Assembly (NCBI RefSeq): GCF_964355755.1
Contig: NC_092674.1
Span: forward strand, 3,477,001-3,541,000
Source of the DNA: Antedon mediterranea
Taxonomy: Eukaryota > Echinodermata > Crinoidea > Comatulida > Antedonidae
DNA: 64,000 bases
Reading direction: 5' to 3'
Positions 1,281-46,400 of this stretch are shown here, one piece after another. Numbering within the stretch: position 1 is the first letter of the stretch; each line of letters starts with the position of its first letter. The translations under genes and the position numbers were made by a program. The notes under the pieces were generated by a model. It did not search any database, had not been told where the DNA came from, and was given only the letters and a program-made list of their open reading frames with translations.

Positions 1281-4200
1281 ATGGAAGTGAATTATCTGTC
1301 AATAGATCCATATCATTGTACTCTTTTTGACGAGCAGAAAAAATGTGTAAGTACTTATTTATATACTGAACTGTGAAAATGAAATAGCCTAGGCCTAGGC
1401 CTACTGCTAGCTAGACCTAGGCCTAGGACCCGACAGAAAAGCCAAACAGACGAGCAAAATAAAACACGCCCACTGCCGCACCTGTGTGTCACTGAGAATT
1501 TAGTCTACCGACCTAACTACAGTAGGCATAGGCCCTAGTAGTATCCCAAGGGTAGTAGGCCTAAAATAAAAAGAATTATAGTGTGCATTTACTAGCCTAG
1601 AGGCCTAGCCTAAACCTGCTAGCTTAGTATTAGTAGGCCTATCGTTTTTATTTTTTAGTTCACATATATATTGAACTGAATAAATTAATATTATTAATAT
1701 TAAATTATTATAAAACAAAAATGTATCTTGTGGGAGGAAATTAAATTGGTTTCTTATTATTATGTTGCAGGATATCATTGTTGCAGTCAAACGATTTGTG
1801 GCGTCCTTTTCTATCATTGGATGGTAAGTTGATTAAATATCGTGGTGAATGGGTGTATAGAGGCCTGCTTTTAACCAATCATAAAAACCATTCAACTACA
1901 CTTTACCACAAACAACAACTCCCTCTCTTTGAAATATTTAATATTTTGATTAAATGTTTTTGTGTAAATAAAAGTGAAGGTAATGATGTAATTATATTGT
2001 ATATTATATATTGATGTGGTGAAATGTATATAAGAAATGTCGTTTCTTTCTGACTTTTATTTAATACTGTATATGTTGTGTTTTTATGTAAAAGGGTTCT
2101 GCGAAAACAGAATTGTAAAATTCTTTATGCAGGACCCTTGCTATCAATTTATATACTGAAATTGTAATTACGATGACTTAATGAATGTGAATTGAAAAAA
2201 AAAAAGAAGTTATGTATAGAATCTTGTCTCAAACCTGCAAGCGATTACCAATATTACAAACTCCATATTTATGTTTAGTATGGAATAAATGATTGACTAA
2301 ATTAGAAAAATGTAACATTATTTTTACAGCGTGGCAATGATCAGTCTTATTTGGCTTTTTCGGAAATATTTATTTTTTGCTCAGCGCATGATACTTTCGT
2401 TGAGCATAGCAGCTCTCTTTGATTCGTTGGCCATGATGGTAAGGAGCCATTTCATACATCATGTTCCATAGAATTCTTTCAGTACTTGTAGTATTATGTT
2501 TATATGTCATCTTTTCCACCTAATATGCCAACTGTGTCAATCATTTACATTATTGTAAGCATATAAAGGAAGTAGTTCAGATCAGAATTTCCTACAGGTA
2601 ATAATAATACATAATGATATTTAAATTAAAACTGTAAATATTTGATTGAATAAAAAAAAACATTTCGCTTACTAGCCCTTTAGCTCCTTAGCAAATGTCT
2701 ATGAATACATGGTTAGATTTTTATATAGTGAGAAATAATGTGTTTAAAAGGAGACAATACCGGGTTCAGTAAGCCTAATCTATTGCAGAGATCAGGAAGC
2801 TGCTTGGATATTTTCTTAATCTTTTGGTTTTGAAGGACTTTAGAAAATCTAAAACAAAAGGCTCACTCACAGGCTTTTATGAATAATGAATCTTATTGTA
2901 AAATAGTATACAATTAATTTTCAGAAAAAGTACTACCTGTTTCAATATTGCAGAAATTAGAAAATTCTAATATTTGTTTATTTTTTCGTTTCAAAGACAC
3001 TGAAATATGATTAAAACAAAGCAAATGTTCTTGATAGTTGATGTTGATCACATTTTCATCAGTTGTATAATAAGATTCACATGATAAATATTGAATTCAT
3101 AATACTGTATTCTTTTCAATCATTTTGAATGTACTTCTCATCAGTGGAGCTATGAGCACTCACTGGCTAAACATTAAAATATGTCAGAAAAAGCTAAGAA
3201 CGCCCAAGGTCTTCAGCATTGGAGGGCAACTTAGAGTGTTCCTGAACCAGGGGCATTTGGTCACTGCTTCTCATCACTCATTTCATAAAAGGAACAGAAA
3301 CTCAGCATGTTTACTTTATTAATAAAAAAAACCTTTTTTTAAAACTGTAAAAGAAAACTCTGAACTATATTATTATTATAAAATGTTTCACTTCTATTTT
3401 CTTCTGTTTGTTGTTTTATATGATAACAAGTACAACCACATTTTGAATTTTCAATTATAGTATATTTATAAAATTGTTACCAATGTTGCTGAGTATTGTA
3501 TATATTCCCATAGTGACTGGGTATGAAATTTGAGAAAAAAATTACCAGGAATGGAATTTAACTTGTTGCGAATTTAGCCTAAATTACTGGGTGCGCTTGT
3601 ACAGTACTACCATTGGATTTACTGGTATTTATTTATCCTACATTCCATGGTGTAGTTTCTATCCTTTTTTTCATATTTTCAGTCTTTTTATCATCACACT
3701 CATATGGCTTTTCAAAAAGTATTTGTTTTTTACGCAACGTCTCATCTTGTATCTAAGCTGTGCTGCTTTCATTGACGCTATAGCGTATGTCATGGTGAGG
3801 ATTCATTTTCAAATATTTTTTACAGTTGTTGAATGCCTCCTTCTTTTGGGACACTATTAAGGAGAAACTTTTCCATTTCAACAAAGAAGGAGAAATATGT
3901 TTGTTTTAATGCTACCGGCAACCCTTCTTTTGGGACACTCCTATAAAGAAAACACTTTTCCATTGAAACAAACAAGGAGACTATCTTCCTCTGGGCGGAA
4001 CAAGAACACTTTTCCCATCAAGGTTGATTCAAGGGGAGAGGCCCAGTCAGTTAATGGCTTGATCTATTTACATATATTGTATAATACAGTATTATATTAT
4101 TAAACTTTATATGATAAAAAATGTAATGTGCCCATATGAACATGTCATATTTGGCCATATCACTAACTTATTTGGGTACATCACACTTTTTTTTGATAGT

Positions 4201-7200
4201 GTAGACAGAGCTTAATAAAAAATTTCCCATTTAAGTAAGTTCACAAAATAATAGAATTTATTTGTTTTATTACAACAGGGAGATATCCATCCTGATGGTG
4301 CCTGGTGTGAGTTCCAGGCTTGGATGTTATCCTTCTTTGGTAAATACATTTATATTTTTAAGTTCAAATGTATTCAGAAAATTATACCGATGTCATCTGT
4401 TATATCATGTTGCATATTCCCTTGTTCCAGTTGCTCCTCTTTTATTCTCTATAGCTTTTAATTGTCTAGAACTTTGAACTTTTGTCATGTATTTAAATAC
4501 TAAATTCTGTAAAAAGAGTGTAAAAACTGGTTTTTTTTTCTGTCATAGATTGGGCGGTACTTTTATGGGTGTGTTGTATCACCTTCAATTTGTATTACAA
4601 CGTGATTAAATTAAAGAGTTCTGAGAAGTTTGAAATGTAAGTAGAAAGTACATTAGGTATTATAGAACTTTTTAAAAAAATAAATAAATACACAATAGAG
4701 AGCTTTCAATTTGCGATGAAAAAGGAATAAGTTAGGTCATGTTATCAAATTCATATGTGGGCAAGTCTGAACATCAGGGCATCACGTATGCAAAACCCAG
4801 GAGAGCAACAAATCGCTCTCCTCAAATCACCGAGGAGAGCAATTCGCTCTCCTTGCAAAAATTTTAAATCGCTCTCCTCAAATATTTATGTTGAAGTTGA
4901 AGGATGGTCGCCCTTATTAAAAATGGCTGGCCCTTATTAATTTTTTGTACACATTTTTTTGCCCGACAGGGGATAACCCCCCCCCCCTCGGGCACAACAA
5001 ATGTATACTGTACCTCTCCCCTAAAATCCCCCACACCCACCTTTACACACAATATTTTCCGTGGGGATCGTATTATTCTACAGTACAAAAAACTCAAGCC
5101 AATTTTTTTTTTATGGCCTGGGTAGATTGGGTTTCAGGAGCCTGGAGAATCCTGTCCTGGCCAACTATATGCCTTTCTTTAGCCTAGCTTTTCTAGCCTA
5201 GCTTGTTGGCCTAGAAATCAGACAGAAAACCTGAAAAGTATTTACCTGCAATTCATAAATTATACAATTCTAACATGCAACAGCCATTAAAATATTGATA
5301 ATAAGTTACAAAGTGTCATTTTAAAATAATTAAGAAAGATATTTGATCGTGTTTACATGTGTCACACATGGGCGCACGCACAATAGGGGAGGGCTGAGAG
5401 AGCTTCTAGAAGATGCTGACGTCACACATCAGCACGTGTTTTGAGGAGGATTTGAGTGACCAAAATTGGTTAGAACTTTTGAAGAAATAATCCATCTTCA
5501 AAATGACATAATTAAAGCAACCAGCAGCTAAGCTTTTTTAAATAATAAACATTATATTTAGGCCTCCTATATTAATGTTTCCTTTTAAATTTAAATATAT
5601 TTTATTAACTCGTTCCATAAAAACATAAAGGGAAAAATTATTGGTTGGGACATGATCTTCCTGTAAAGGAGGTGTTTCTATGACACCGTACTGGTTGCAC
5701 TATGAGGCGATGAAGTAAACTCGCCCTTGAATGCGCGCAGGCAGGGGAATCCCCTTTGTTGGTACCTCGCACTGTGAGATGGAGCGCGATGAATTGCTCT
5801 CCTTTTCGAAGGTTGTTGATTGCGATCGCGCTCGCGATCCTTAAAAACGAGGGACTGCCATTAGGCTTGTAGCTTTATAACTTAGCTTATAGGCCTAGGT
5901 TTTAACTTTTAAAAATCCACGTGTTTTTAGGCCTCTTGACAGAAAAATCAACACTGTCAAAATCTAGGCTCTATTTTGAAAATTAAGGAGCGCGATAAAT
6001 TGCTCTCCTCGAAGCCTGTTGAGGAGCGCGGAGGAGCGCGGTCGCGCAGGCGCTCCTTATAAATGATGCCCTGGAACATACTTGAGTGGTTCCTAGATCC
6101 ATATCAGTTCCCGGTTGTCGCAAATCGAATGCTCTCTAAAGCTCTGTCTACACTATCAAACTTTATGTGAAAAAAAAACGTGATGTGCCCAAATATTTTA
6201 GTGGTATGACATAATCATGTCCATATATTATATGGGCACATCACATTTTGTTGTCACATAAAGTTTGATAGTGTAGACAGAGCTTTACTGATAAAATGCA
6301 CCAAAATGTATTAAATTTATTTGATTCAAACATATTATTATGATTTTAGGACAGATTCTCATAATTCCGAAATAAAGTTTGTTACAAATAATATATGCTT
6401 ACAATGCTTTCTTTATTATTCTAGACTTTATCATGCAATATCATGGGGATTTTCTCTCTTTATTTCACTTCTTCCATTCATTGGTGACCACTACGGGCCT
6501 GCTGGAGCATGGTGGTAAGTTTAAACATGTCTGAAGCTCTGTCTACACTATCAAACTAGTTTGACAAAAAAAAGTGTGATGTGCCCAAATATGGTAGTAA
6601 TATGCCCAAATGTGGTAGTGATATGGTCAAATGTGGTAGTAATATGCCCAAATGTGGTAGTCATGTGCCCAAATGTGGTAGTGATATGACATCATCATGT
6701 CCATATATGGCACATCACATTTGTTTGTCATATAAAGTTTGATAGTGTGGACAGAGGTTTATGGACATTGGACATTGTTTATAAACAAGCAACCAATCAA
6801 TAAGCCCTTCTGTGTGGCGTAGGCAAATTAATGTTATGTGCCACCTGTACTAAAACTGTATTCTTTATGCATGCTGAATTGATTTGAATTAATTTGGAAA
6901 ATCAGTTTAAAAAATACATACAAAGTCATAAAATTTAATATTATAAATATTACAAATAAATATGTTTATAAAAGATTTTCCAGGATAGCCCAAAAAACTA
7001 AGACGTAATCAACTTTGTACTGTATCTCTAAAGCTTTGTCTACACTATCAAACTTAATGTGACAAAACAAATGTGATGTGTCCATATACAGTATGGACAC
7101 GATGACGATATTTGGGCACATGACACTTTTTTCTACCAAACTAGTTTGATAGTGTAGACAGAGCTTTAGATCTAAAATTTCAGAATTAAAACATAAAAAT

Positions 7201-10200
7201 CCAGCTCAAATCATCCAATGTATTTTTACTAAGGTAAATCAATATGTTGAACTAATTTTTATCTGTATTTTAGTTGGATCAATGGAAGTAATGAGACGTA
7301 CTGGCGGTTCTTCACATGGTACGGACCGCTCTTTGTTATCATAGTTATAATGTTTGCTGTATACAGTTACCTCACCTACAGACTCAACCAGAGAGTGCGT
7401 ACTTGGGAGGGTACTTATGACCCCGATATAGAACACAGCAAGGAGCTTCTTAAGCAAGACATCAAACCGCTCAAGGCTTACCCATTTATCTACCTCATCT
7501 TATCAATATTTCCTTTAATTAACAGGTAAATCCATCAATATGATATTTTTATTTAACTTTTATTTCTTAAATTTTTTAAATAAAACATTTGTGTGAAATA
7601 GAAAGCCAGAAATGAGGTGCTTGTGAAAGTAGCGCATTGTGTACATTGTGTTTCAATTTAGTCTTTTGTTAAATTCAATCCAACAGCATAATATCAATCA
7701 TTTAGTTTAGGGCAAAGGTCGTGAATTAGCTCTTGGCAATAGAGTATGGATATCTCATTAAATTGGGAGGTTTAACCATATAATTTATAAGTACATAAAC
7801 CTATGTTTAGCATGCAAAAAGTAATACTAAAACATATGCTTTTCAATCAATAATTTGTAGTCCTAATATTCATGGTTGCACCAAACGGCTACATAGTAAT
7901 AAATAAGTAATAAATGTGATGTTTTTTATTTAAAAAATAGTACTGTTTATATTGATTTATTTTTTGTTAGAATTCAGAATGCAGTTAACCCAGGTGAGGC
8001 TGTCTTTGGCCTGGTTTTAATGCATGCCATTTGCTCTCCACTGCAAGGCGTTTTTAATGCTATTGCATATGGTCTGGATAAGGAGACTATCAGCCGACTA
8101 ACCTGGCCACAAATAAGTGTAAGTTGTCCAGGAAATTGTCCTACTACTCTTTTTCTTATTAATATATTTTTACCTATCTTTACCCAGTTATATGTGTATA
8201 CACAATATAGTAGGTGTATTCGACTGGGCTCTTTTGAGAAGATAATCTACAGACATAACTCCTTGTTGCATGTATAAAGAGTGATATCGCCCTCTATCCG
8301 GGGCAGAGGCAAAAGAGAATGTTGTTAATTTCAAGGTTAATCATTGTCGTATGAAGTCTTCAATCATAAAAAACAATACTTAAAACACCCTTTTAGTAGA
8401 TCATTGAGCCGTTTGTGAGTGACCAGTCGAATACACCTTATAGTCATGTTCATATCCTTCTATTCTACATAAGAGGCTACTAAAACAAACCAAACTCCAA
8501 GATTTCCAGTATGTGAAATTCTGTTATGTGTATATTATATAGGTTTTATATTATATTTATATTGTACAGTTTTTTTACTTGTATTAACTTTTCTCTGTAT
8601 AGAGGTTTTCTAATAGATTTTTTATATTCACTATTCACAGCATTAAGCTTGCATTATATATACACTGATAAATAACATAAGAAAACAGTCATTTTCACGA
8701 CGGTAGCACAATAATGATGGTAAATAGAGAGTCGGCACAATTGCATTAAATTTACATTTATTGGTTTTGAAACACACAGATAAAGTCTCTATGACATCAT
8801 TTCAAACTTTGCAAAACATTGAGAACATTTTACCCCACAATGTACTTTAGGTTGACGTTATATATAAGTCTCGGCCCAGAACCATTTTACCGCGAGGTGG
8901 CTTGAGAAATTGGGAATATGGTAAAACATTAACAATTTTACGGGGTGGTGGGAGAGGCTGATTTAGGTAATATATGCTGTTGATTAACTCTCCATTTTGT
9001 TTTGCTACCATTGTGATATACCACAAGGCTCTATATAGAGACCTGTAATACTATTATTATATCTTATTCTTACACTTTTTTTATTATTAATATTTACTGT
9101 ATGCACAGAAATACCTAGAATAAACAGTAAGGCATCAGTTGAAGGGCCTAAAATTAGTATAAAATAAAGTGATGAACTTAATCTAGATTTTGGGGTTCCT
9201 GGCAGCGATATTTCTTTTCGTACATAAGTTGGGGACCCCTCATGAAACGTCTCAAAATAAACATGAATATTCATTAGTCATGTAAGAATTGAGCCAACTA
9301 CAATTCGCTAATGCAAATGCTTTCCATTATTGCTGTCTGTGTAGTCAATTGGTTAGACTATTTACATGTCATGTACAGCAACTGCTTTTTACTTTGTAGT
9401 GAGAGAGAGATGAGATTATTAGACGGTAATATTTTGCAACTATCTTTCACATAAGGAGTCCCCAACTTATGTACAAAAAAAAATTGCTTCTTGATACACT
9501 CAAAGTTGTGTGTCCATCTGTATGCTAGCACAAGTTGAACATAGGTTTAAAAGATGGACGTACTGTACCATGACTTTGAAGCTACAGTATACCAATCATG
9601 CAAATTTGATTTCAAACCTCAAAAACCTTAAAACATAGACATTTTATCATTTAATATGAATAATGATAGAAATCAAATCAAACAATAAATCAAATCCCTA
9701 TCAATGAATGAAATTATTACTCATGTACACTTACACTTTCAACCAATCAAATCACTTCAAACCACACAAGCCTTATATGGCTGTTATTTTCTCATCTCAT
9801 TTACATATAGGTTGCTTGGAAAGGTCATTTTTACGAGAGGTCACAAATTCGTGAATATCCATTGGCCGTACCAGACAACTTAGACATAGATGAGAGAGAC
9901 TATTTAAAGCAGCCATTAACCGAGTCCTACTCATAACAAAGTTTGTAACCCTTTTGTCCCTTTTTGCATGCCATACATTTACAAATTCATGTAAATTTAG
10001 AATGAAATTTTATTCATTTTTTTACTAATCATATCAACATTTATAAATCATGTTTTCTATAACTACTTGCTACTTCATTAGTTAGTACAGTCAACTCGGA
10101 TGCTTTTCCCAAATCAGAATGTTCCTGTTATGGGCCTATGCATTCCATTAAATAGCAAACTTAATGGTGTTAGTTATTGGCTGGTGTTTAGGGACAGTTT

Positions 10201-10772
10201 GACTGACACCTAATCACTTTTGAATCTATTAAATTAACAAATACTTAATAGGGCACGTTAGTTTTTTTGCTATTTCATGTTTCTTCATTTTGTTTGCATG
10301 TTAAATCCTTCTTTATGTTATAATTCAATTTCAGTTTGCTTTCTACATTTATTTTTGGTACAATAAAATATGTATCAGGATCCAAATGGGGAATTTGGAT
10401 CAGATTTCTAGCATGAGGCACCAAACTCTACCTGTAATTGCTCTGAGAGAACTAAAAAATAAAATCAGGTAGAAGTTTGTACGAATGAGTGAGAGCAGAG
10501 ATTAGAAAATAATCGAAACCGGAAAAAAATTGGTGTCTGAGCAAATTTGATTAATGTCTCATTTATTACAGAATGCGTTTAAAAGCAAGTTCAGTAGCAG
10601 AGCTGTGATTGGTGAATACAATATTGAGGAGAGGACCGACACTATAGAGAGTGTGGACACTGTTCTTGATGACGATGATGATCCAAAAGAAGAGAAAACG
10701 GAACCGGTCGATGAAGATACACCGAAGAAAGATGAAGAACAGTGGTCTTCGGTGAATTTACAGAAAGATTAA
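1281..10772 (+). CDS. Seven-TM receptor of the cAMP-receptor-like (Crl) family
   Basis: Coding exons: 1281-1346, 1771-1823, then either 2330-2438 or 3683-3794, then 4279-4339, 4549-4636, 6425-6514, 7274-7525, 7971-8118, and either 9811-9936 or 10572-10772. All junctions are GT-AG and phases agree; products are about 330-356 residues. The start ATG has A at -3 and G at +4. TM1 is VKRFVASFSIIGC plus the variable exon, which supplies ICL1 and TM2. Next come GDIHPDGAWCEFQAWML (ECL1/TM3), WAVLLWVCCITFNLY, HYGPAGAWCWI (ECL2 with the Trp-Cys typical of the family) and the TM5 block WRFFTWYGPLFVIIVIM. TM6 is YPFIYLILSIFPLINRI and TM7 contains ICSPLQGVFNAIAYG. These match slime-mould cAR/Crl and GPR157-like class E-type GPCRs. 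It acts at a membrane; the animal ligand is unknown. Convergent with MIS12; AATAAA at 11875-11880. Confidence 0.88.
2330..2438 (+). CDS. GPCR variable exon, copy A (TM1-ICL1-TM2)
   Basis: 109-nt exon between a TTTTTACAG acceptor and a GTAAGG donor. It enters with one base completing a Cys codon (TG|C) and leaves in phase 0. It encodes VAMISLIWLFRKYLFF then AQRMILSLSIAALFDSLAMM. Its length is 1 modulo 3, so skipping it, or using it together with copy B, breaks the frame. It aligns with copy B at the invariant core LIWLF.KYLFF.QR.IL.LS.AA..D, with conservative changes elsewhere and one residue fewer at the C-terminal end. Confidence 0.85.
3683..3794 (+). CDS. GPCR variable exon, copy B (TM1-ICL1-TM2)
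   Basis: 112-nt exon between a TATTTTCAG acceptor and a GTGAGG donor, 1.24 kb downstream of copy A. It enters with one base that also completes Cys (TG|T) and leaves in phase 0, so it substitutes for copy A. It encodes LFIITLIWLFKKYLFF then TQRLILYLSCAAFIDAIAYVM split across positions 17-37. The open frame is intact and the coding differences from copy A are mostly conservative, so it looks like a maintained alternative rather than a decayed duplicate. Confidence 0.83.
4102..4213. repeat. MITE family 1, 5'-truncated copy
   Basis: Right end GATAGTGTAGACAGAGCTT preceded by the family core (GTGCCCATAT, CATATCACTA, GGGTACATCACAC). The left inverted repeat is missing. It lies between GPCR variable exon B and exon 4. 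Confidence 0.75.
4775..6073. mobile_element. Non-autonomous hAT-like element in a GPCR intron
   Basis: The ends are inverted: CAGGGCATCA at 4775 and TGATGCCCTG ending at 6073. They are flanked on both sides by the direct repeat GAACAT (4769-4774 and 6074-6079). CAGGG-type termini with short target duplications fit hAT elements, although hAT normally duplicates 8 bp and only 6 match here. Subterminal regions are full of short inverted GGAGAGC/GCTCTCC motifs (4799-4880 and 5985-6055), as in hAT subterminal binding repeats. No transposase is seen. Length about 1.3 kb, in the intron 4637-6424. Confidence 0.7.
6139..6285. repeat. MITE family 1, complete copy
   Basis: Starts AAGCTCTGTCTACACTATC and ends GATAGTGTAGACAGAGCTT; the two ends are perfect inverted repeats around an AT-rich core with GATGTGCCCAAATAT. 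A flanking TA on both sides is consistent with a TA-type duplication. Intronic in the GPCR. Confidence 0.85.
6534..6760. repeat. MITE family 1 copy with internal micro-repeats
   Basis: Full-ended copy starting 19 bp after the donor of GPCR exon 6 (GT at 6515). The core holds five tandem variants of 'ATATGCCCAAATGTGGTAGT' (about 6577-6690), an internal amplification absent from the other copies. Confidence 0.83.
7031..7166. repeat. MITE family 1, complete copy
   Basis: AAGCTTTGTCTACACTATC to GATAGTGTAGACAGAGCTT, flanked by TA on both sides. It sits about 108 bp upstream of GPCR exon 7. Confidence 0.83.
9218..9475. repeat. Inverted-repeat element (possible MITE)
   Basis: GTACATAAGTTGGGGACCCC (about 9219-9238) is matched in inverted orientation by GGAGTCCCCAACTTATGTAC (about 9456-9475), with about 215 bp between the arms. 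This resembles a short foldback or MITE in the GPCR intron before terminal exon A. No clear target duplication was found. Confidence 0.5.
9811..9936 (+). CDS. GPCR terminal exon A (short cytoplasmic tail)
   Basis: Begins in phase 0 after a TTACATATAG acceptor and runs to TAA at 9934-9936. The 41-residue tail includes VAWKGHFYERSQIREYPLA and ends QPLTESYS. It is hydrophilic, with several Ser/Thr/Tyr residues. It joins the exon ending at 8118 in frame. Because it ends in a stop, using it excludes exon B; a polyadenylation or splice choice would decide. Confidence 0.72.
   Translation, partial: VAWKGHFYERSQIREYPLAVPDNLDIDERDYLKQPLTESYS
10572..10772 (+). CDS. GPCR terminal exon B (long acidic tail)
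   Basis: Begins in phase 0 after a TTTATTACAG acceptor and ends at TAA 10770-10772. The 66-residue tail starts NAFKSKFSSRAVIGEYN and becomes strongly acidic (VLDDDDDPKEEKTEPVDEDT). It joins the exon ending at 8118 in frame as an alternative to exon A. The two tails have no evident similarity, so arrestin, kinase or trafficking contacts could differ between isoforms; that is inference. Confidence 0.75.
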   Translation, partial: NAFKSKFSSRAVIGEYNIEERTDTIESVDTVLDDDDDPKEEKTEPVDEDTPKKDEEQWSSVNLQKD

Positions 10773-12153: not shown

Positions 12154-15100
12154 TTAAAGCAATTTCTTTCTGTCCAGATCACCGTCATCTTCAAAGGTCT
12201 GTTGGGAAAAAACACAAACATAAAAATCAATATTTAAATTACTGTAGCTGTAATGCTCATTCTTGTTGACCAGACTGGCGTTATTTATTCACAGTATTAA
12301 GTGGGCTAATCCTGTCTCCATAGGTTTCAAGGTTGTCATAGCCGGGAGTGGTATTGGGGTTAAGCTCCCTTTACCTAAAAAATGCTCCCATACGGTGTGC
12401 GTCTCAAATAGCCTCTGACAACTAAAAGTCCAACTCCTGGCCTGCACGAATGGCTTAGTTCTTTCTTTAAGCCTGGCGAAACCTGCTTCCTACTGACAGG
12501 AGAAGGGACGAAGGCGAGCCATTGGCGCCTCAAAACCAGAAGCTTACTTGGACAGGTGGAGTTCATCAGCCGTGACAGGCAGTTCACCTAGGAGAAGGAA
12601 AACTCTGATTTTAAACCTCCGCTGCCTTGCGGCTATATCCATCCTGGAAAAGGCTTCAGGAGTAAACCTCAAGGACAAATCCGGAGTGAAGCCCCTAAGG
12701 CGGTTTGGAACATTGACTCAATCTCCTTCCGGCAGCTTCTGCAGCCAAACTGGTACCATACGTATTGCTCTGCTCTCCTATGGACTTTATCGGTAAAGGC
12801 CGAGAGGGGGATTCTGCTGACTGGGCATCGCAGGGTCCCCATATTTTTCTTCGCCCAGGCGTGCGCCCTGGAGAGGTCACTTCAGTGCTGTTGTAAAAAA
12901 CGGCTAAAATCAACACGGGAGACAGCAGTTTACGAGTGATAAGCCAAGACCAATTGGCGTAGGTCAAGGCGCTACGGGTTGTCTCCGACGGTGGGAGGGA
13001 CCATCGCAGTCCCACTGGTCAGCTATCGCCCGCCTCAAGCCGAGCAGCCCTCGGCCAGTAAGATGCTGACCCGCCACAGTCTGCCTGCTTCAATGGGTGC
13101 TTGGAGCTTAGGATTCTTCCGACAAGCGGACTGTAACTACTGCACCAGGCAAAAGATTAAAGAAAAGACTAAAGAATACTACACCTTGCGATTTGCAAGC
13201 TGGAATGTCAGGACCATGTGTCCTGGCTTTTCAAACGACCCACGAACGACCAATGACTTAAGAAAGACAGCTATCATCAACCGTGAGCTCAAGAGGCTCA
13301 ACATCGATATCGCTGCATTACAGGAGACAAGACTCCCCTCGGATGGCAGTATAAGAGAAAGGGACTACACGTTCTTTTGGCAGGGGTTGGAACCTGACCA
13401 ACCACGACTCCATGGAGTGGGGTTCGCTGTTAGAAACTCTCTTGTAGCATCAGTCGAACCACCATCCAAGGGCACCGCCCGAATCCTCTCACTCCGCCTA
13501 TCAACATCTTCGGGCACAGTAAACATCTTGAGCATCTATGCACCAACTCTTTGCTCAACACCCGAGTCTAAAGATGAGTTTTATGAAGAGCTGGACTCTG
13601 CCATCAGAGGAATCTCAGACACAGAACATCTGTATTTGCTTGGCGACTTCAACGCCCGTGTGGGATCTGACCATTTTTCCTGGCCCAGGAGCATTGGACA
13701 TTTTGGTGTAGGAAGACTAAATGAGAATGGCCAGAGGCTTCTGGAGCTCTGCAGTTATCATGACCTCTGCATTACCAACACATTCTTCTCCACCAAGCCT
13801 CAGCACAAAGTGTCCTGGCGACATCCAAGATCTCACCACTGGCATCAACTAGATCTCGTCATCACTCGAAGATCTTACTTAAATTACGTAAACATCACTC
13901 GCAGTTACCATAGTGCAGACTGCGATACTGATCACTCTATGGTGCGCAGCACAGTGTGTCTCAAACCAAAGCAAATTCATCGCTTCAGGCACATAGGATG
14001 CCCACGCATCAACACAGCTAAGACCAATCTGCCAGACCTGTGCGCTCGTTTCGCCCAAACCATCGATAAAATGCTGAAAGACTGTCCAAAAGCCAACTCT
14101 GAAATGAGACGGGCTCATATTCGTGATGCCATCTATACCTCCGCCAAAGACATCTTCGGCGTGAAAGAGAGGAAAACCCCTGATTGGTTTGAATCAGGAA
14201 TTTCTGCGATGGAGCCAGCTTTAGAGGCAAAGCGTGCAGCGCTAATTGACTACAAAAGAGACCCTTCAGAAAGAACACTAGAGGCTCTTCGTAAAGCTAG
14301 AAATAACTCTCAAAAGATAGCTCGACAGTGTGCCAACCAATACTGGTTGAACCTCTGTCAAGATATTCAACTCTCTGCTGATCATGGCAACACTGGCGCC
14401 ATGTACGCTGGTATAAAAAAGGCCTTTGGACCTAGTGCAACGAAGATCGCACCATTAAAGACCGCCTCTGGTACCATCATAACTGATCGTGGAAAGCAGA
14501 TGGAGAGATGGGTAGAGCATTACCAACAACTCTACTTGAGAGAAAACATTGTCACTGACTCAGCCATTGAGTGCATAGATTCTCTCCCCATAATGGAAGA
14601 GCTCGACAATCCACCTACACTGGCGGAACTAAGCAAGGCCATTGATATCTTGGCTTGCGGTAAAGCCCCAGGAAAGGACGGTATCCCACCAGAGGTCCTC
14701 AAGGCTGGTAAACGCTCCACATTATTACTACAAAACCTACACGAGCTTCTGCTACAATGCTGGGAAGAAGGCTCAGTACCCCAGGATATGCGTGACGCAA
14801 ACATCGTTACACTGTATAAGAACAAAGGCGATCGCAGCGACTGCAACAACTATTGTGGAATATCCCTTCTTAGCATAGTGGGTAAAGTCTTCGCACGTGT
14901 TGTACTAACTAGATTACAATCACTTGCAGAACGTGTCTATCCTGAAGCCCAGTGCGGCTTCAGAGCTGGAAGATCAACCATCGACATGATATTCTCAGTG
15001 AGACAACTGCAAGAAAAATGCCGTGAGCAGAGGCAGCCCCTGTACATTGCCTTCATAGATCTAACGAAAGCCTTTGACCTTGTCAGTAGGAAAGGTCTCT

Positions 15101-18100
15101 TCTCCCTAATACAAAGGATCGGATGTCCTCCAAAGCTTCTGGGGATAATCACCTCCTTTCACGAAGACATGCACAGCGTTGTGCAGTATGATGGCTCATC
15201 TTCAGATCCTTTTCCCATCAAGAGTGGAGTAAAGCAGGGGTGCGTTCTCGCGCCTACACTCTTCGGCATATTCTTTTCCCTGTTACTATCATATGCCTTT
15301 CGTCAGTCAAATGAAGGAGTCTACCTACATACTTGAAGTGACGGAAATCTCTTCAACCTTGCCCGCCTTCGCGCAAAGACCAAGGTGCGACGTCTACTTA
15401 TTAGAGAGTTGCTCTTCGCTGATGACGCTGCCATCACAGCCCACAGTGTAGAAGCACTCCAGCGCCTCATTGACTGCTTCTCACATGCATGCGAGGAGTT
15501 TGGCCTTACCATCAGCCTTAAGAAAACGAACGTTCTAAGTCAAGACGCAGCCAATGCTCCTCCTAAGATCAAAATCGGCGATTATACTCTTGAGGTGGTG
15601 GACAAGTTCATTTACCTTGGTTCCACTGTTTCCAGTAACCTCTCATTTGACGCCGAACTCAACATCAGGATTGGAAAAGCGACATCAGCCATGGCTCGCC
15701 TAACAGATAAGGTTTGGAAAAACCGCATGCTGACTATAAACACCAAGATGAAGATCTACCAGGCTTGTGTCCTAAGCACCCTATTGTACAGCAGTGAATC
15801 ATGGTCTCTTTACACCCGCCAAGAGCGCAGATTGAGTTCATTTCATCTGCGCTGCCTGAGAAGGATACTCGGCATCAAATGGCAGGATCATGTCTCAAAT
15901 AAAACCGTTCTAACTCGGGCAAGTTTGCCCAGCATGTACTCACTACTTACCCAGAGACGCCTTCGATGGCTGGGCCATGTAAGGCGCATGGATGACGGAA
16001 GAATACCAAAGGACTTACTCTATGGTGAGCTTGTCACTGGAACTAGACCTAAAGGAAGGCCCATGTTACGCTTTAAAGACGTATGCAAGCGTGATCTTAA
16101 GTCGGGCAACACAAACGTCACAAACTGGGAGGCTGTTGCCTCCGATCGCAGTATGTGGAGATCCACTATCAAGATGTGTGTCCAAACAAGCGAGAGTGGA
16201 CGCGACAAGAAACGGACGCTACTCAAGAAACGTAGAAAGGAGAGAGCATCCTCTGCTCCAACCGATCAGGAGCCAACGTACATCTGCCCAAAATGTGACA
16301 AATCATGCCGCTCAAAAATTGGACTTTTTAGTCACAGCAGGCGCTGTGACCCTGCACCGAATGACGGATAGAGGGCGCATACCTATTGTCTCTCGAGACA
16401 GACGGCTGCCAATAAAAAAAAATCCTGTCTCCAATCTCCCTTGTGAAATAATCCATTTGTACAATGAATAGTATAAAAATAGAAATAAATTTTGAATAAG
16501 TAAAACTTTCTTAGGGCCAGCTGTCTGGACTGGTGAATATACTGTTCTTGTAGACGTTTTCTTCTGAAGACACATGGCCGTCATTGATGGATACTTAGTA
16601 TCAGTTGATTTCACTGCTGGTTTACTAGAGATCTATGTTTATACCATGCTATACACTTTTATTTTAATTATTGATGTTTTTATTATGTATTGGTTAAAGA
16701 AACAACTGTACTGTATTATACCTGTGTGTCATCTAGTTGTTTACTGTACACATCATTTAACTTGGACTGGATTCTGCCAACTTTACCCGCAATAAAAATG
16801 ATACTCTCTTTCATATCGGACACTAACAATAAGAAAAATAGTGAACATTTAATTTTGTTATTTTGCTTACAAATGTTTAGCCTTAGTATGTTTTCATATT
16901 ATTTATAAAAAAATTGTTGATTACAGAATAGTAGTGTGTAGAAAACAACAGAAAAAGAAGCCAAATTATTTTCATTTATATTACTCTGGTTCGAATCAGT
17001 GTTTTTTATTGTATTAATTTTTTGCTGGGCAATCCCAAGAAACCAAATTGTAATTTACTAATTGGTTAAACTAAGGCAATCTAACAACAGGACACTGAGC
17101 TCTCCTTGCCAAGATAGGAACTCGTAACAGTCCTTGGATCTTTTGTCTGGCGGAGACAAATACCAACAGTACTGTGGTATATATCAGTGTTCTCCCCAGG
17201 CCTTTGAAGCGTCACGGTACCGTGACGCTTGGGTTCTCTACCGTGACGCTTTACGGTCGGCCGTGACGCTTAAAACCTTATCCGTGACGCTTAAAAATAA
17301 CAACAATCTAAAAATAGATTAACAGGCAGGAGGTACGGTACTTTCTCTGCGGCATGCATAAAGAGCCTAATGCACACGAGACACGTGACATGACCACTAG
17401 ACGAAAAACAAAAGACTGCGTAACAAAGTGTTAATGTTATGCGCGATTTGAACGATTTGCGCAATTTGAAATTGCGCAAAAAAATCCTTGCGCAATTTGA
17501 AATTGCGCAAAGAATTCTTGCGCAATTTAAAATTGCGCAAGGATTTTTTTGCGCAATTTCAAATTGCGCAATCAACTTGCGCAAGAAAATCTTTGCGCAA
17601 TTTTAAATTGCGCTGCACAATTTGTAAATTGCGCAAGGTAGTTCTTGCGCAATATGACACCTTTGCGCAATTTGAAAACGAACTGTAAATTTTCCCATAC
17701 ATGGCTAGGCTAGGCCTAGGCAGAGGAGTTTAAAATTTAGTATTTTATTATATAAATAAGACCATTTCAATGAAGATAATGTTTAATACTCACTTTTTAA
17801 GTTTTTAATATTAGTTTAGCTAGGCCATGTAACCTAGTCAGTATCAGTAGTCCAGATCCTAGCTAGGCTAGAGTAGTAGGCTATAGCCGGCCGCCCGCGC
17901 CGCGCCCGCCTGGTGGAACACCACCGCTTCGTTTTCCTTCGTCGGTTCTTCGACGGTATGCTAACTTATAACAATATTTGCACTACTAAAATAAGGAAAT
18001 GCAATATTTATCTTTAATTTTGAATCATTCTTAGAAATTACTATAAAAATATGGGTGTGCATGATTTCACAATCTGTCGAAAAACCTTGCGCAATTTGCA

Positions 18101-40455: not shown

Positions 40456-43400
40456 ATGCCTTGGCGTCAACGTCGTCACAACGGGTGGAAGGAAGATTGG
40501 CCACAGAAGAAAAAGAAATCATCAAACAGCTGGAGAAACAGCAGCTCTTGGACCCTGCCAAGTGTTCCTGGTCTAGACTTGCTGGAGAGGTCTCTGCTTA
40601 GTGTTGATGCCTTAATTGGCGATGATCCATATATTGATGATGACCTAGATGACAGCTCTGATAATCAGAAACTGTTGGCGACCATCAAAGGCAACATTGT
40701 TGGAATTCAGTACTACAATGGCACGGTATTGAATAATCACAGTTAATAATTCTTATAAGCTTTGCTATGTTTTTTTTCTAATTTTTAAATATTACTCATT
40801 TGTTCTTCAGAATGGTTCCATGATTGTTCCGAAATTTCAATCTTTTTTGTCATTAAATTTTATTTTAAAGAGAATTTTTGAGTTAAAATTAAAACACTAC
40901 AGCAGCTTATTAATTGAATTTCTGCATTGTTGTTCTTGTTTTTTACAGGTTAATAATTTTGAAATGGTCGGCTTGGTACGAGAACCTAACAATCCATACG
41001 ACAGAAATGCAGTACGTGTCGACAATGTTAGTAAGCAAAAGGTTGGCCATCTAAATCGACATTTAGCTGCTGCAATGTCTTATATAGTGGACAACAAGTT
41101 AGCACGTGTTGAAGGGTAGGTGTATTGTGATGTGTTTTATAAAATTTTACCTTATTACATTCATATGTTTTTTATGTGTGGAACTGTATGATATAATTAA
41201 TATCTTTGAGTCTATTATGAGGGCTTACAAGCGTCATTTAAAGCTCTACACTATCAAATTTTATGTGACAACAAAATTTCATTTGCCCATATATGGACAT
41301 GATGTCATATCACTACCATATTTAAACATATCGCTACCATATTTGGGTACATGACACTTTTTTGTCAAACTAGTTTGATAGTGTAGACAGAGCTTAAATT
41401 GATGTCATGGATGTCTTTATTTTTTTGTTTAGCATTGTCCCGTCGGGGAAGAATAATCAATATTCAATGCCAGTGAACCTCACCCTGTGGGGAAAACCCG
41501 AAAGACAGAATTCAGTTGCGAGTGCTCTATCCAGACATAATATTCAGTTTCAATATCCTGGTGGAGCCATGTCAACCGCCACTGCCTCATCTTCCGGTGT
41601 GGTTAGTGGTTACCAACCTAGGTCATCTAGTTATACCCCACAGCTCTTGACTCAGGCAGAGGTAATATATTGTTACTTTTTAATGTCCATATTCCTAATA
41701 CGATTGTTGGACTGTTTTCGACACAATGATTTTGAGATGAACTGCCTCCATGTTTTATAATCCTGAGATACTTTTTTGGTTGGGGCCTGAAGGTTTTACT
41801 GTAATTATGAAAAAGTGAATTGTATAAAAAAATGCCTATGGTAGAATTCGAACCTGATACTTCTCACTTGTTACTCTCGAGTGCCAAACCACAGTGCCAC
41901 AAACTGGTGTAGTGTGTTTTAGTGTAGTTCTGTGGTAAGCCTATTCCAAATTCCCGGGAGAAGACGCCATCATTTCTTATGGTCCCCAAATACATGTCAG
42001 ATAAAAGAACTTTTTTCTTTTTTTCCCCTGAAATTATACAAAAATAAAGTAGAATTAAAATTAATATAATTATTGAATTATATTGACATTTTATCCTAAT
42101 TTTCTTACTTCTACTGTAGATGAAAAATGAATTGGATAGTATTTTTGACTCAATGAAGGAACACGATAAAACATCTTGTATGGAGCCAGCCAAGGTAGAG
42201 TAACATATTTACATAGTGTTGATGTTGTTTGTTTTGTTGCTTGTCTTGTTAATTTTATCATATATGTTTTGATGTAATAATAATTATTTAAATTATTTTA
42301 AAAATAATACTGTTTTTTCAGATTAATTCAAAATAATATTTTGTTTCATTTTATGACAAATCATCAGCATGTATATAATCATTCAGATTTGATTGTGATA
42401 CGGTTTTTGCAAGTGTGATATCTGCATATCATTAAGCTGAAGGTTCCGAGTTCGAATCTCGATTGGGGTGGTTTTTTCTCAACGATTCCGTCATTTTTTA
42501 TCGTTTCTAAATCAATAAATTTTCCCTTTTTTTCATTTATTTATTTTTTCATTTAATTTTCAGTATATCATAGGGCGGTTTAGAATTTCTTCTATGAATG
42601 CCTATAAATATTCTATTTACTATTTTCATTGTTTAGGCCATTATGACCAAACTGTACCCACATCAGAAGCGTGCTTTGCAGTGGATGGTGAACCAGGAGA
42701 ACTCCAACACCCTGCCACCATTGTGGAAAGAGAGGAAAGGAAACTACATCAACATCGCTACAAACTACCAAACAACAGTGCGGCCGCCAAGCATTAATGG
42801 CGGCATTCTAGCAGACGACATGGGCCTTGGTAAAACTCTTGAGGTCATAGCACTTATCATGACAAACTTTTGCAATGGGAAGCCGTTAGCTGTCCCTGTG
42901 GAAGGGTTGCCGCCTCCCAAGGTACAGTAACAAATTTTGCATTCAACTGTATATATATACAGTAAATACACTTTTATTGGACACCACTCTAAGGGAACAC
43001 TTTTCTGTTTAAAAACAACAAGGTGAAATATATTTTTGAACTCGTATGAGATAATTCTATTAAGGGAACACTTTGTTGGGTCCTCAAAGTTTCCCCCTTA
43101 GAGGTTTTACTATAAATTATAAATAACACAAATTATGAAAAATGACTTGTAGTATCAAGCAAAGCTTATTAACAAAAGTTCCAATATTATTGTATAAAAA
43201 TGTCTGTTAGGATTTGAACCTGCGACTTCTCACTTACAGCATGAGTACCATACCACATCAAACTGGTGTTTTAGTGTAGTTTTACAACAAAATCTGCTTT
43301 ATATTCATAGGAGGTAGGTAGTATGTCAAGTAAAAGGAAAAATGGAAAAGTGGATACAGTATTTGAGAAACCAGTCTTTGAGGTGAAGACGAAATCAAAA

Positions 43401-46400
43401 CTAGAGGACGTGAAATCAGATGTAAAGGTGGAAATAGACATCAAAACAGAGGTGAAGATGGAACAAGAGATAAAAATAGAAGTGAAGAGAGAGGAAGGGA
43501 AGAAAGAGGAGGAGGAGGAGGAGTATCAACCTAAATCAGGAAAAGGAGGGAAAGGGAAGAGAGCTACAAGAAAGAGGAAAGCCGGCAAAAAGGACAAGGT
43601 GAGTTAAAATACAATATGTGATGATAGTAAACAAGTTCATAATAGTTCATAGTGTGCTTAGGGTTACTATATTTAAATGTCATTTAAATGCCATTACCCA
43701 CATAACCACCTACTTTGTTGTTTCAGAAAAACATGAAAGATGTTGCAAACGTTGAAGAAAACATTGAATCTGGTAGACGACCAAGAAGGTTGGTATGCTT
43801 CTAAAGCTCTGTCTACACTATCCAATTTTATGTGACAAAAAAATGTGATGTGCCCATATAGGGACATGGTGATGTCATATCACTACCATATTTAAGCATA
43901 TCGCTACCATATTTGGGCACATCACACTTTTTTCTTTAGATGAGATTTGCTGTACTTCCATTCTATGGTCAGTCTTAAAAATATTGTAATTTTTTTTTTG
44001 TAATCTGGGCATATATATCTGGGTTTTGTTCTTTGCTGATTGTTGTCTTTATGGAATATTTTATCAACAGAAAAGTTTGTGTACACCACTATTATTTTTA
44101 TTTTAAGATCCTAAAAGCAAATTCAATAAGACTACTAATATGCTATTTTGTGTTTTTTTCAGAACTATTAGGAAACCTGCTAAGTATGTGTACAGTGGTA
44201 GCGAGGATGAGGCTATGATTTCCAGCATAGTTTCACAAAACAAAAAATGTAAGTATTCTTTAAAACTCTATCTACACTATCAAACTTTATGTGATGTGCC
44301 CATATATGGACATAATGATGTCATATCACTACTATCTCTTATTCTTTCTATATTTCAGGTAAAACAAATACTTCTGTGCAAGAAGAGATAAAATCAGAAG
44401 TTAACGTTGAACACAATGAAAAAGAAGAGGAGGTGTTTGAGATGGATATGGTAGAAAACCATTGGGATGATGTGGTACTGCCCAACACATATGGTAATGA
44501 CATTTTGTCTTTTACTTATCTTGTCTTAGTAGTTAAGTTTCATCTTGTTTGTATAAAGACTATTGGAAGATTTTTACGTTTACTTCTTGGGAACTTGATT
44601 CAATCAGTCAATAAACATGATAATAACCAATAATAATATAGTACAATGATTTTTAAAAAATATAATGAAAATAATATATAATGTAAATGCAGATTATTTA
44701 CAATTTGGCCATTTGTTGTGCAAACAAGTTAACTTGCTAGATGTGACTACATCAGTAGCCTTAATCTAAATGCCAACTTTTATGTCAATGGCTACCAGAT
44801 GTCTCTATGATGTTACCTGAACCAGTACCAGATTTAGTAAATTATTTGTTACATTTTGTCTGTCATAGTTAAACATGTAAATTAAATATTTCAAATTCAG
44901 TTCTTTTTCAAGCTCTGTGTATTCAGTGTATTATACACAAATTCTTCCTAAAAAGCATTATTTACAATTACTATTTACAATAAACTATTTATTATCGTTT
45001 ATTTATCAGTATTTTAAATGATCTTTTTAAAATAATCATTACTTTTTGTTTTTAGCGGTTAATAGTACTTAATTTTCATTTTAGATGATCTTCCAGAAGT
45101 ATTGATTACTGAGCCGGAATCGCTGCCATCAATGTCCAATTCCACACAAGCTTCAGTTAATGGTACAACCTCTTCTCAAGTTGACCTTGTTGTAATTTCA
45201 CCCTTAAAATCTTGTAATTCTGAGAAGACATTGCGGCAAACGTCATCTGTTGTTTCAAATTCCTCTACAGCAAATGGCACTTCTGTTCTCAATATAACCG
45301 ATGCCATTCCAGCTAATGACACTACTGTCCCGGAAACAAGCGATGTCGTTGAAGCTAATGGTACTTCTGTTTCGGGAACAACCAATGTCACTCAACTGAA
45401 TGGCACTTCTGTTGGTAATAGTAAGAGTTCTCATGATGGTAATCTTGCTCTTGTACCATGGCTTTCGTTTGAGAATATAAAAGTGCCTTCAGTAAACGAC
45501 GGTGCTCCTGGTACAAAGACTGTTATGAATGATCTCCCTCCTTTACCAAGTCTTCCATCAGAACAAACAAAGATGAAACCTGCATCAAGATTGTCTACTG
45601 GTGTGTCTTGTGCAAGTGGCGCCAGCGTCAATAAAGTTTTTACACCAGCACCTATCTTAATTCAGGAATGGAGAACCTCCGATGTGGCTACCTCCTCTGG
45701 CAGTCCTGATGTATTGAAAAAATCAACCATTGTTCTCAGTGACGAAGAAGATGATGATGATGATGATGACCTCCCAGCAATACAGCTCTCTCACAAAGCC
45801 CCCAGCAGAACATACACAAGAGGTCCAAGAGCAACTCTCATTGTCTGCCCTCTGTCGGTGATGAGTAACTGGTTACAGCAACTCAAAGACCATGTGCATC
45901 CTCATGTGGACATAAGAGTGTACTTGTATTATGGACCAGATCGTGTACGTGATCCTAAAGTGCTGACGTCTAAAGACATCGTGATAACAACCTACAATAC
46001 ATTGGCAATGGATTTTAAAGCAAATGGGGTAAGATTTGTTATTGTTTATTCATTATCAGAATATGTGACGTACCCATATATGGACACGATGTCACATTAC
46101 TACCATATTTGGACACATTACACTTTTTTGTTGTCTAGAATATAGAATAGTACAATCATAACTGCTAATAGGGCACAAATATATCTGGAAAATATTATAC
46201 AGTTAAGTTAGTTATAAAGCTCTGTCTACACTATCAAACTTTATGTGATAACATAAATAAGATTCACCCATATATGGTACATGATGATATCATATCACTA
46301 CCATATTTGGGCACATCACACTTTTTTTGTCATACTAGTTTGATAGGGTAGACAGATCTTAACAGAAAATTGTGCTTCCTTACTGTTAAAATTTACAATA

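Follow-up and report, generated by a model that had tools for sequence, protein, structure and literature searches.

Can a single gene of the crinoid Antedon mediterranea give rise to two versions of a GPCR by choosing between two neighbouring exons? This question is raised by a receptor locus in a 64,000-nucleotide stretch of contig NC_092674.1 (positions 3,477,001 to 3,541,000, hereafter referred to as the window). The receptor gene, rebuilt from the sequence, is complete. It spans 1281-10772 on the forward strand, which carries all its exons, and has nine exon positions, the third of which exists in two versions, 3a and 3b. Inspection of the splice sites revealed GT-AG at every intron. Exon 1 (1281..1346) contains a predicted start codon, MEVNYLSIDPYHCTLFDEQKKC and the extracellular N terminus, with an open frame and a gtaagt donor. 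Exon 2 (1771..1823), which has AG/GT sites and an open spliced frame, encodes the first half of TM1 and ends on the letters TG, in phase 2. The alternative exons 3a (2330..2438, 109 nt) and 3b (3683..3794, 112 nt) encode the same segment, namely the inner half of TM1, ICL1 and TM2, and their products read (C)VAMISLIWLFRKYLFFAQRMILSLSIAALFDSLAMM and (C)LFIITLIWLFKKYLFFTQRLILYLSCAAFIDAIAYVM, respectively; each has AG/GT borders, homology to the other and an open spliced frame. This frame continues through exon 4 (4279..4339; ECL1, a conserved Cys and the start of TM3, a region aligned to the adhesion receptor ADGRD1), exon 5 (4549..4636; TM3), exon 6 (6425..6514; TM4 and the start of ECL2), exon 7 (7274..7525; ECL2, with WCWI spanning the 6/7 junction, followed by TM5, ICL3 and TM6), exon 8 (7971..8118; TM7, with QGVFNAIAY) and exon 9 (10572..10772; cytoplasmic tail and stop codon).

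The surrounding DNA contains several other elements. The sequence CTCTGTCTACACTATCAAAC is present in 23 copies (0 expected), at 4191-7163 and at further sites up to 56220, and many of these copies form inverted pairs about 110-220 nt apart that correspond to the ends of a MITE-like element; several lie in introns of the receptor gene. A LINE-type retrotransposon occupies 12943-16371 (+), where two ORFs in the same frame are split by a single stop. The first encodes an endonuclease and a reverse transcriptase (797 aa), and the second the end of the reverse transcriptase and a possible zinc finger (344 aa). The GC content of this stretch is 47%, versus about 32% just upstream. Further downstream, exons for HIRAN and SNF2 domains (40733-46145, +) likely belong to an HLTF-like helicase gene.

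As read in the spliced frames, the end of exon 2 (..GGA TG) is completed to a Cys codon by either version of exon 3, giving TGC with the C at 2330 and TGT with the T at 3683, and both versions finish on a codon boundary before joining 4279 (GGA..) in phase 0. The coding sequence comprises 1068 nt (355 aa) with 3a and 1071 nt (356 aa) with 3b, and both are open to the stop codon at 10770-10772. When 3a and 3b are included together, a stop is met at codon 107 (3773), 658 nt ahead of the last junction and with six junctions downstream. When both are skipped, the stop is at codon 79 (4603), 521 nt ahead of the last junction and with four junctions downstream. Double inclusion and joint skipping are thus the non-productive forms, and since each of these stops precedes the last junction by >500 nt and leaves several junctions downstream, NMD of such mRNAs is to be expected by the general rule. 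An earlier, sequence-only reading of this DNA had given the same coordinates, lengths (109 and 112 nt, both 1 modulo 3), phases and junctions, had described the Cys formed at both exons and the join to 4279, and had claimed that the frame survives with exactly one exon. All of this was recovered exactly when the gene was rebuilt.

A stop that appears on double inclusion could in itself be put to use, unproductive splicing being a common form of regulation. One of the two exons would then act as a poison exon, which, when added to the other, directs the mRNA to NMD and lowers the receptor level, and the double-inclusion stop (codon 107), with six junctions after it, would suit such a role. However, the amino acids of a poison exon need not be preserved, yet both copies are constrained as protein, as described below, and each exon alone yields a full receptor. 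A role of this kind is very unlikely.

The peptides encoded by 3a and 3b are identical at 23 of 37 aligned residues, with a length difference of one residue, and their DNA is 60% identical. Their BLOSUM62 global score is 114, compared to a mean of -3.5, a standard deviation of 8.5 and a maximum of 33 in 2000 shuffles. This similarity is not due to chance, and the earlier description of two tandem homologous exons stands. In a 14-kb search of both strands, the best other match of each exon was its partner (110-111), the next matches scoring 22-27. No third copy of exon 3 was found within these 14 kb on either strand, nor was any duplicate of exons 2 and 4 or of the other tested exons of the gene. 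When the exon peptides were searched against the 354-Mb genome, each matched itself and its partner only (E 2e-7 and 9e-7). The rest of the receptor gene occurs once, and the genome search found no spliced retrocopy, which could have revealed exon use in the germ line.

These searches also bear on the idea that different promoters are involved, an unseen first exon within intron 2439-3682 feeding 3b. Animal genes often have alternative 5' exons, and this intron is long enough to host one. The open frame leading into 3b (3534-3794), however, lacks an ATG before 3683, and a transcript carrying 3b needs an upstream exon that ends on TG and supplies the first half of TM1, whereas no second exon 2 exists within 14 kb. 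A separate promoter for 3b is hardly credible.

The manner in which 3a and 3b have diverged is informative about their history. Among the 37 aligned codons, the first position differs in 13, the second in 5 and the third in 26, a contrast with a chi-square p of 3e-6. Third-position divergence reaches 0.70, versus 0.74 expected at saturation, and second-position divergence is 0.135 versus 0.64; dN amounts to about 0.28, whereas dS has reached saturation. With these values, both copies have been maintained as coding sequence. Because third positions are saturated and second positions nearly fixed, the tandem duplication must be old, and selection on the protein has acted on both copies through most of their subsequent history. 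Free drift would have made second-position changes as frequent as third-position ones, so neither copy can have gone unselected beyond a small part of its history. Neutral decay simulated up to this divergence never left the frame, the splice sites and the similarity intact together (0 of 3000 runs in each of four settings).

The same figures limit the room for an explanation in which one copy was recently disabled, or is practically unused, and the other alone makes the receptor. A short exon can indeed stay free of stops for a while: in runs where drift was confined to one branch and taken to the observed non-synonymous divergence, 13% remained stop-free with intact GT/AG. However, with 5/37 second positions changed, neutral drift in either copy can amount to no more than about 0.14, while third positions are saturated. 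Moreover, splice sites, phase and frame are kept in both copies, and the family scores of the two forms are similar. That only one of the exons serves the receptor is therefore improbable.

The homology of 3a and 3b, their phases, a frame that allows one of them at a time and the constraint on both copies are best explained by mutually exclusive splicing. We estimate at roughly 85% the probability that 3a and 3b are a mutually exclusive pair derived from an old tandem duplication in a single-copy gene for a cAMP-receptor-type GPCR. In this scheme, an ancestral internal exon would have been duplicated in tandem long ago, and each mature mRNA would carry either 3a or 3b, resulting in two receptors that are alike except for the segment from mid-TM1 through ICL1 to TM2. 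The reading frame and NMD would clear mRNAs that contain both exons or neither. In vivo, each exon would presumably be spliced in without the other.

The sequence features of a mutually exclusive pair, i.e. similarity, similar length, same phase and compatible U2 GT-AG sites, are all present, and the same criteria have been used for predicting human mutually exclusive exons (PMC5740500). The human homologous exons of this type are likewise tandem and internal, of similar length and identical phase, with compatible sites; they also encode part of a folded region, and inclusion of both breaks the frame (PMC5740500). Compared to that catalogue, the receptor pair is predicted from DNA alone. RNA confirmed a minority of the human candidates predicted from sequence, 855 to 1,399 of 6,541 (PMC5740500). 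The earlier reading had also held that reads joining 2438 to 3683 would refute exclusivity. Since joining reads were found in 22% of frame-incompatible human clusters that were still counted as mutually exclusive (PMC5740500), this demand is too strict.

As for the choice between the two exons, their splice sites are unequal. From -23 to -4 of the acceptor, pyrimidines occupy 10 of 20 positions in 3a, the lowest count in the gene, and 17 of 20 in 3b, the highest. The donor match is 6/9 for 3a and 5/9 for 3b, the latter being the gene's lowest. Exclusivity would most likely be enforced by ordinary regulated splice-site choice, the acceptor being weak in 3a and strong in 3b, which also has the weakest donor. 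Steric exclusion was ruled out by the 1244-nt intron that separates 3a and 3b, and U2/U12 incompatibility by the sites, all of which look like ordinary U2 GT-AG. Competing base-pairing segments in the introns, for which the sequence-only reading had proposed a check, were not present beyond chance: compared to shuffled sequence, p was 0.20 for the upstream and middle introns, 0.75 for the upstream and downstream introns and 0.50 for the middle and downstream introns. Docking/selector complementarity between introns, as known from Dscam, is not supported by these values.

Two smaller features flank 3a. The first is a weak candidate stem of 12 bp that may loop out 3a, formed by an inverted repeat (I1) with arms at 2286..2297 and 2536..2547 (+); its p value is 0.014-0.027 for the near flanks only and 0.20 across the whole intron pair. 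The second is a group of four YCAY motifs (a Nova-type binding motif) at 2447..2469 (+), just downstream of the 3a donor. Four such motifs in the first 50 nt after this donor are matched in 1.6% of the gene's 50-nt intron windows, YCAY having been picked after six motif types, and they are taken only as a candidate lead. Just downstream of 3b, at 3839-3980, an imperfect tandem repeat of ~84-87 nt (CCTTCTTTTGGGACACT...AAGGAGA) was also observed. Among pairing, splice-site type and spacing, no convincing positive device enforcing exclusivity beyond frame and NMD was found. Of the validated human clusters, 60% contain exons not divisible by three, possible steric interference concerns 9% and U2/U12 incompatibility <1% (PMC5740500). 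Such devices being rare there, the lack of a visible one is normal.

The identity of the product as a cAMP-receptor-like GPCR, also proposed earlier, was borne out by the Dicty_CAR family (PF05462). The two isoforms score 65.6 and 67.3 bits (E about 1e-18; residues 23-282/283), far above the curated cut-off of 21 bits and across the 7TM region, and a version without exon 3 scores 61.8 bits, below both. The nearest solved structures by sequence are those of ADGRD1 (E 4e-8). A Pfam family search of the animal's own genome returned nothing, controls included, and is therefore uninformative for an intron-rich gene; viral contigs contained no relatives. The sole other cAMP/GPR157-type receptor noticed in the genome is an ORF on C3 (C3:29307445-29308089; L010 1384-2043, strand -), which we take to be GPR157 by its resemblance to the human protein and from the WCWV and TM2 pattern of the ORF. 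It also matches 7tm_2; a single exon covers its TM1 to TM5, and the next one seems to lie at L010 25-309 (-). The motifs WCWI and QGxxNxI, which are present in the receptor described here, are also given for GPR157 (PMC12716839). Since the GPR157-like ORF on C3 is separate, the receptor gene is probably distinct from GPR157 and would encode a cAMP-receptor-type GPCR of its own, two motifs being shared. Receptors of the cAMP type are ancient, occur in diverse metazoans and were lost from vertebrates (PMC12716839).

Alignment to ADGRD1 and to the GPR157-like ORF places the cassette over the inner half of TM1, ICL1 and TM2. With region limits set by our own reading, 3a and 3b are identical at 7/11 residues in the TM1 part, 7/9 in ICL1 and 9/17 in TM2, and one of the two differences in ICL1 is R/K. 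Near the outer end of TM2, 3a is one residue shorter, and 3b retains the GPR157-like spacing. The GPR157-like ORF belongs to a related GPCR family, and its TM2 resembles that of 3b more than that of 3a, both in length and in the YLS pattern; it differs from the receptor gene in that no duplicated segment was seen in it. Given that 3b has the GPR157-like TM2 spacing and 3a does not, the ancestral state seems better preserved in 3b, 3a being the derived copy, as far as this one outgroup can tell.

The sequence-only reading had proposed that exchange of the TM1-ICL1-TM2 segment could retune G-protein coupling or ligand response. The extent of the segment was confirmed, with differences mostly in TM2, and a retuning of coupling through ICL1 was made less likely by the near identity of this loop. 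As the cytoplasmic loop is nearly constant, altered TM1/TM2 packing, or an altered outer end of TM2, would be a better first guess than the contact between ICL1 and the G protein; the swap would thus affect the membrane core more than the cytoplasmic side. Splice variants in ICL1 of class B1 receptors do alter signalling (PMC8796428), so coupling through ICL1 may also be affected. We hold it possible, with the odds leaning somewhat against, that the pair constitutes a regulated TM1-ICL1-TM2 switch through which different cells make receptors that differ in ligand response or signalling, perhaps steered by the Nova-type YCAY sites.

Known systems offer partial parallels. In insects, ETHR-A and ETHR-B are two forms made from one GPCR gene by two mutually exclusive exons that replace transmembrane segments (PMC5572281). 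This ecdysis-triggering-hormone receptor is, however, a different GPCR, and its alternative exons are 3' exons running from TM4 to the C terminus (PMC5572281), whereas here one internal TM1-ICL1-TM2 exon is exchanged. In the calcitonin and CRF1 receptors, splicing also changes the TM1/TM2 side, and the CRF1 insert shifts signalling bias (PMC8796428); these ICL1 variants are insertions rather than swapped homologous exons, and in the present receptor ICL1 is almost unchanged. Local duplication leading to mutually exclusive exons has likewise been described in genes of GPCR signalling, for G-alpha in amphioxus and for vertebrate GNAO (PMC5896119), but in the G protein rather than in the receptor. 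In the open-access literature, no paper was found that links mutually exclusive exons to GPR157, describes alternative exons in animal cAMP receptors or reports a TM1-ICL1-TM2 swap by an internal exon, in line with the sequence-only reading, which knew of none for animal receptors of this type. Mutually exclusive exons are a known phenomenon, also in GPCRs such as the insect ETH receptor, and the view that the pair in an animal cAMP-type receptor is a new example of it is well supported.

To our knowledge, cAMP-type receptors have been little studied in animals. If the proposed splicing is true, this would be the first internal transmembrane-cassette swap in the cAMP-type receptor family. It would add such a swap to the gene architectures of GPCRs, for which few examples were found. 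With two natural isoforms that differ in a single cassette of 37-38 residues, the tuned part of the receptor and the cells in which tuning occurs could be identified, and the pair would provide a ready-made tool for finding the ligand.
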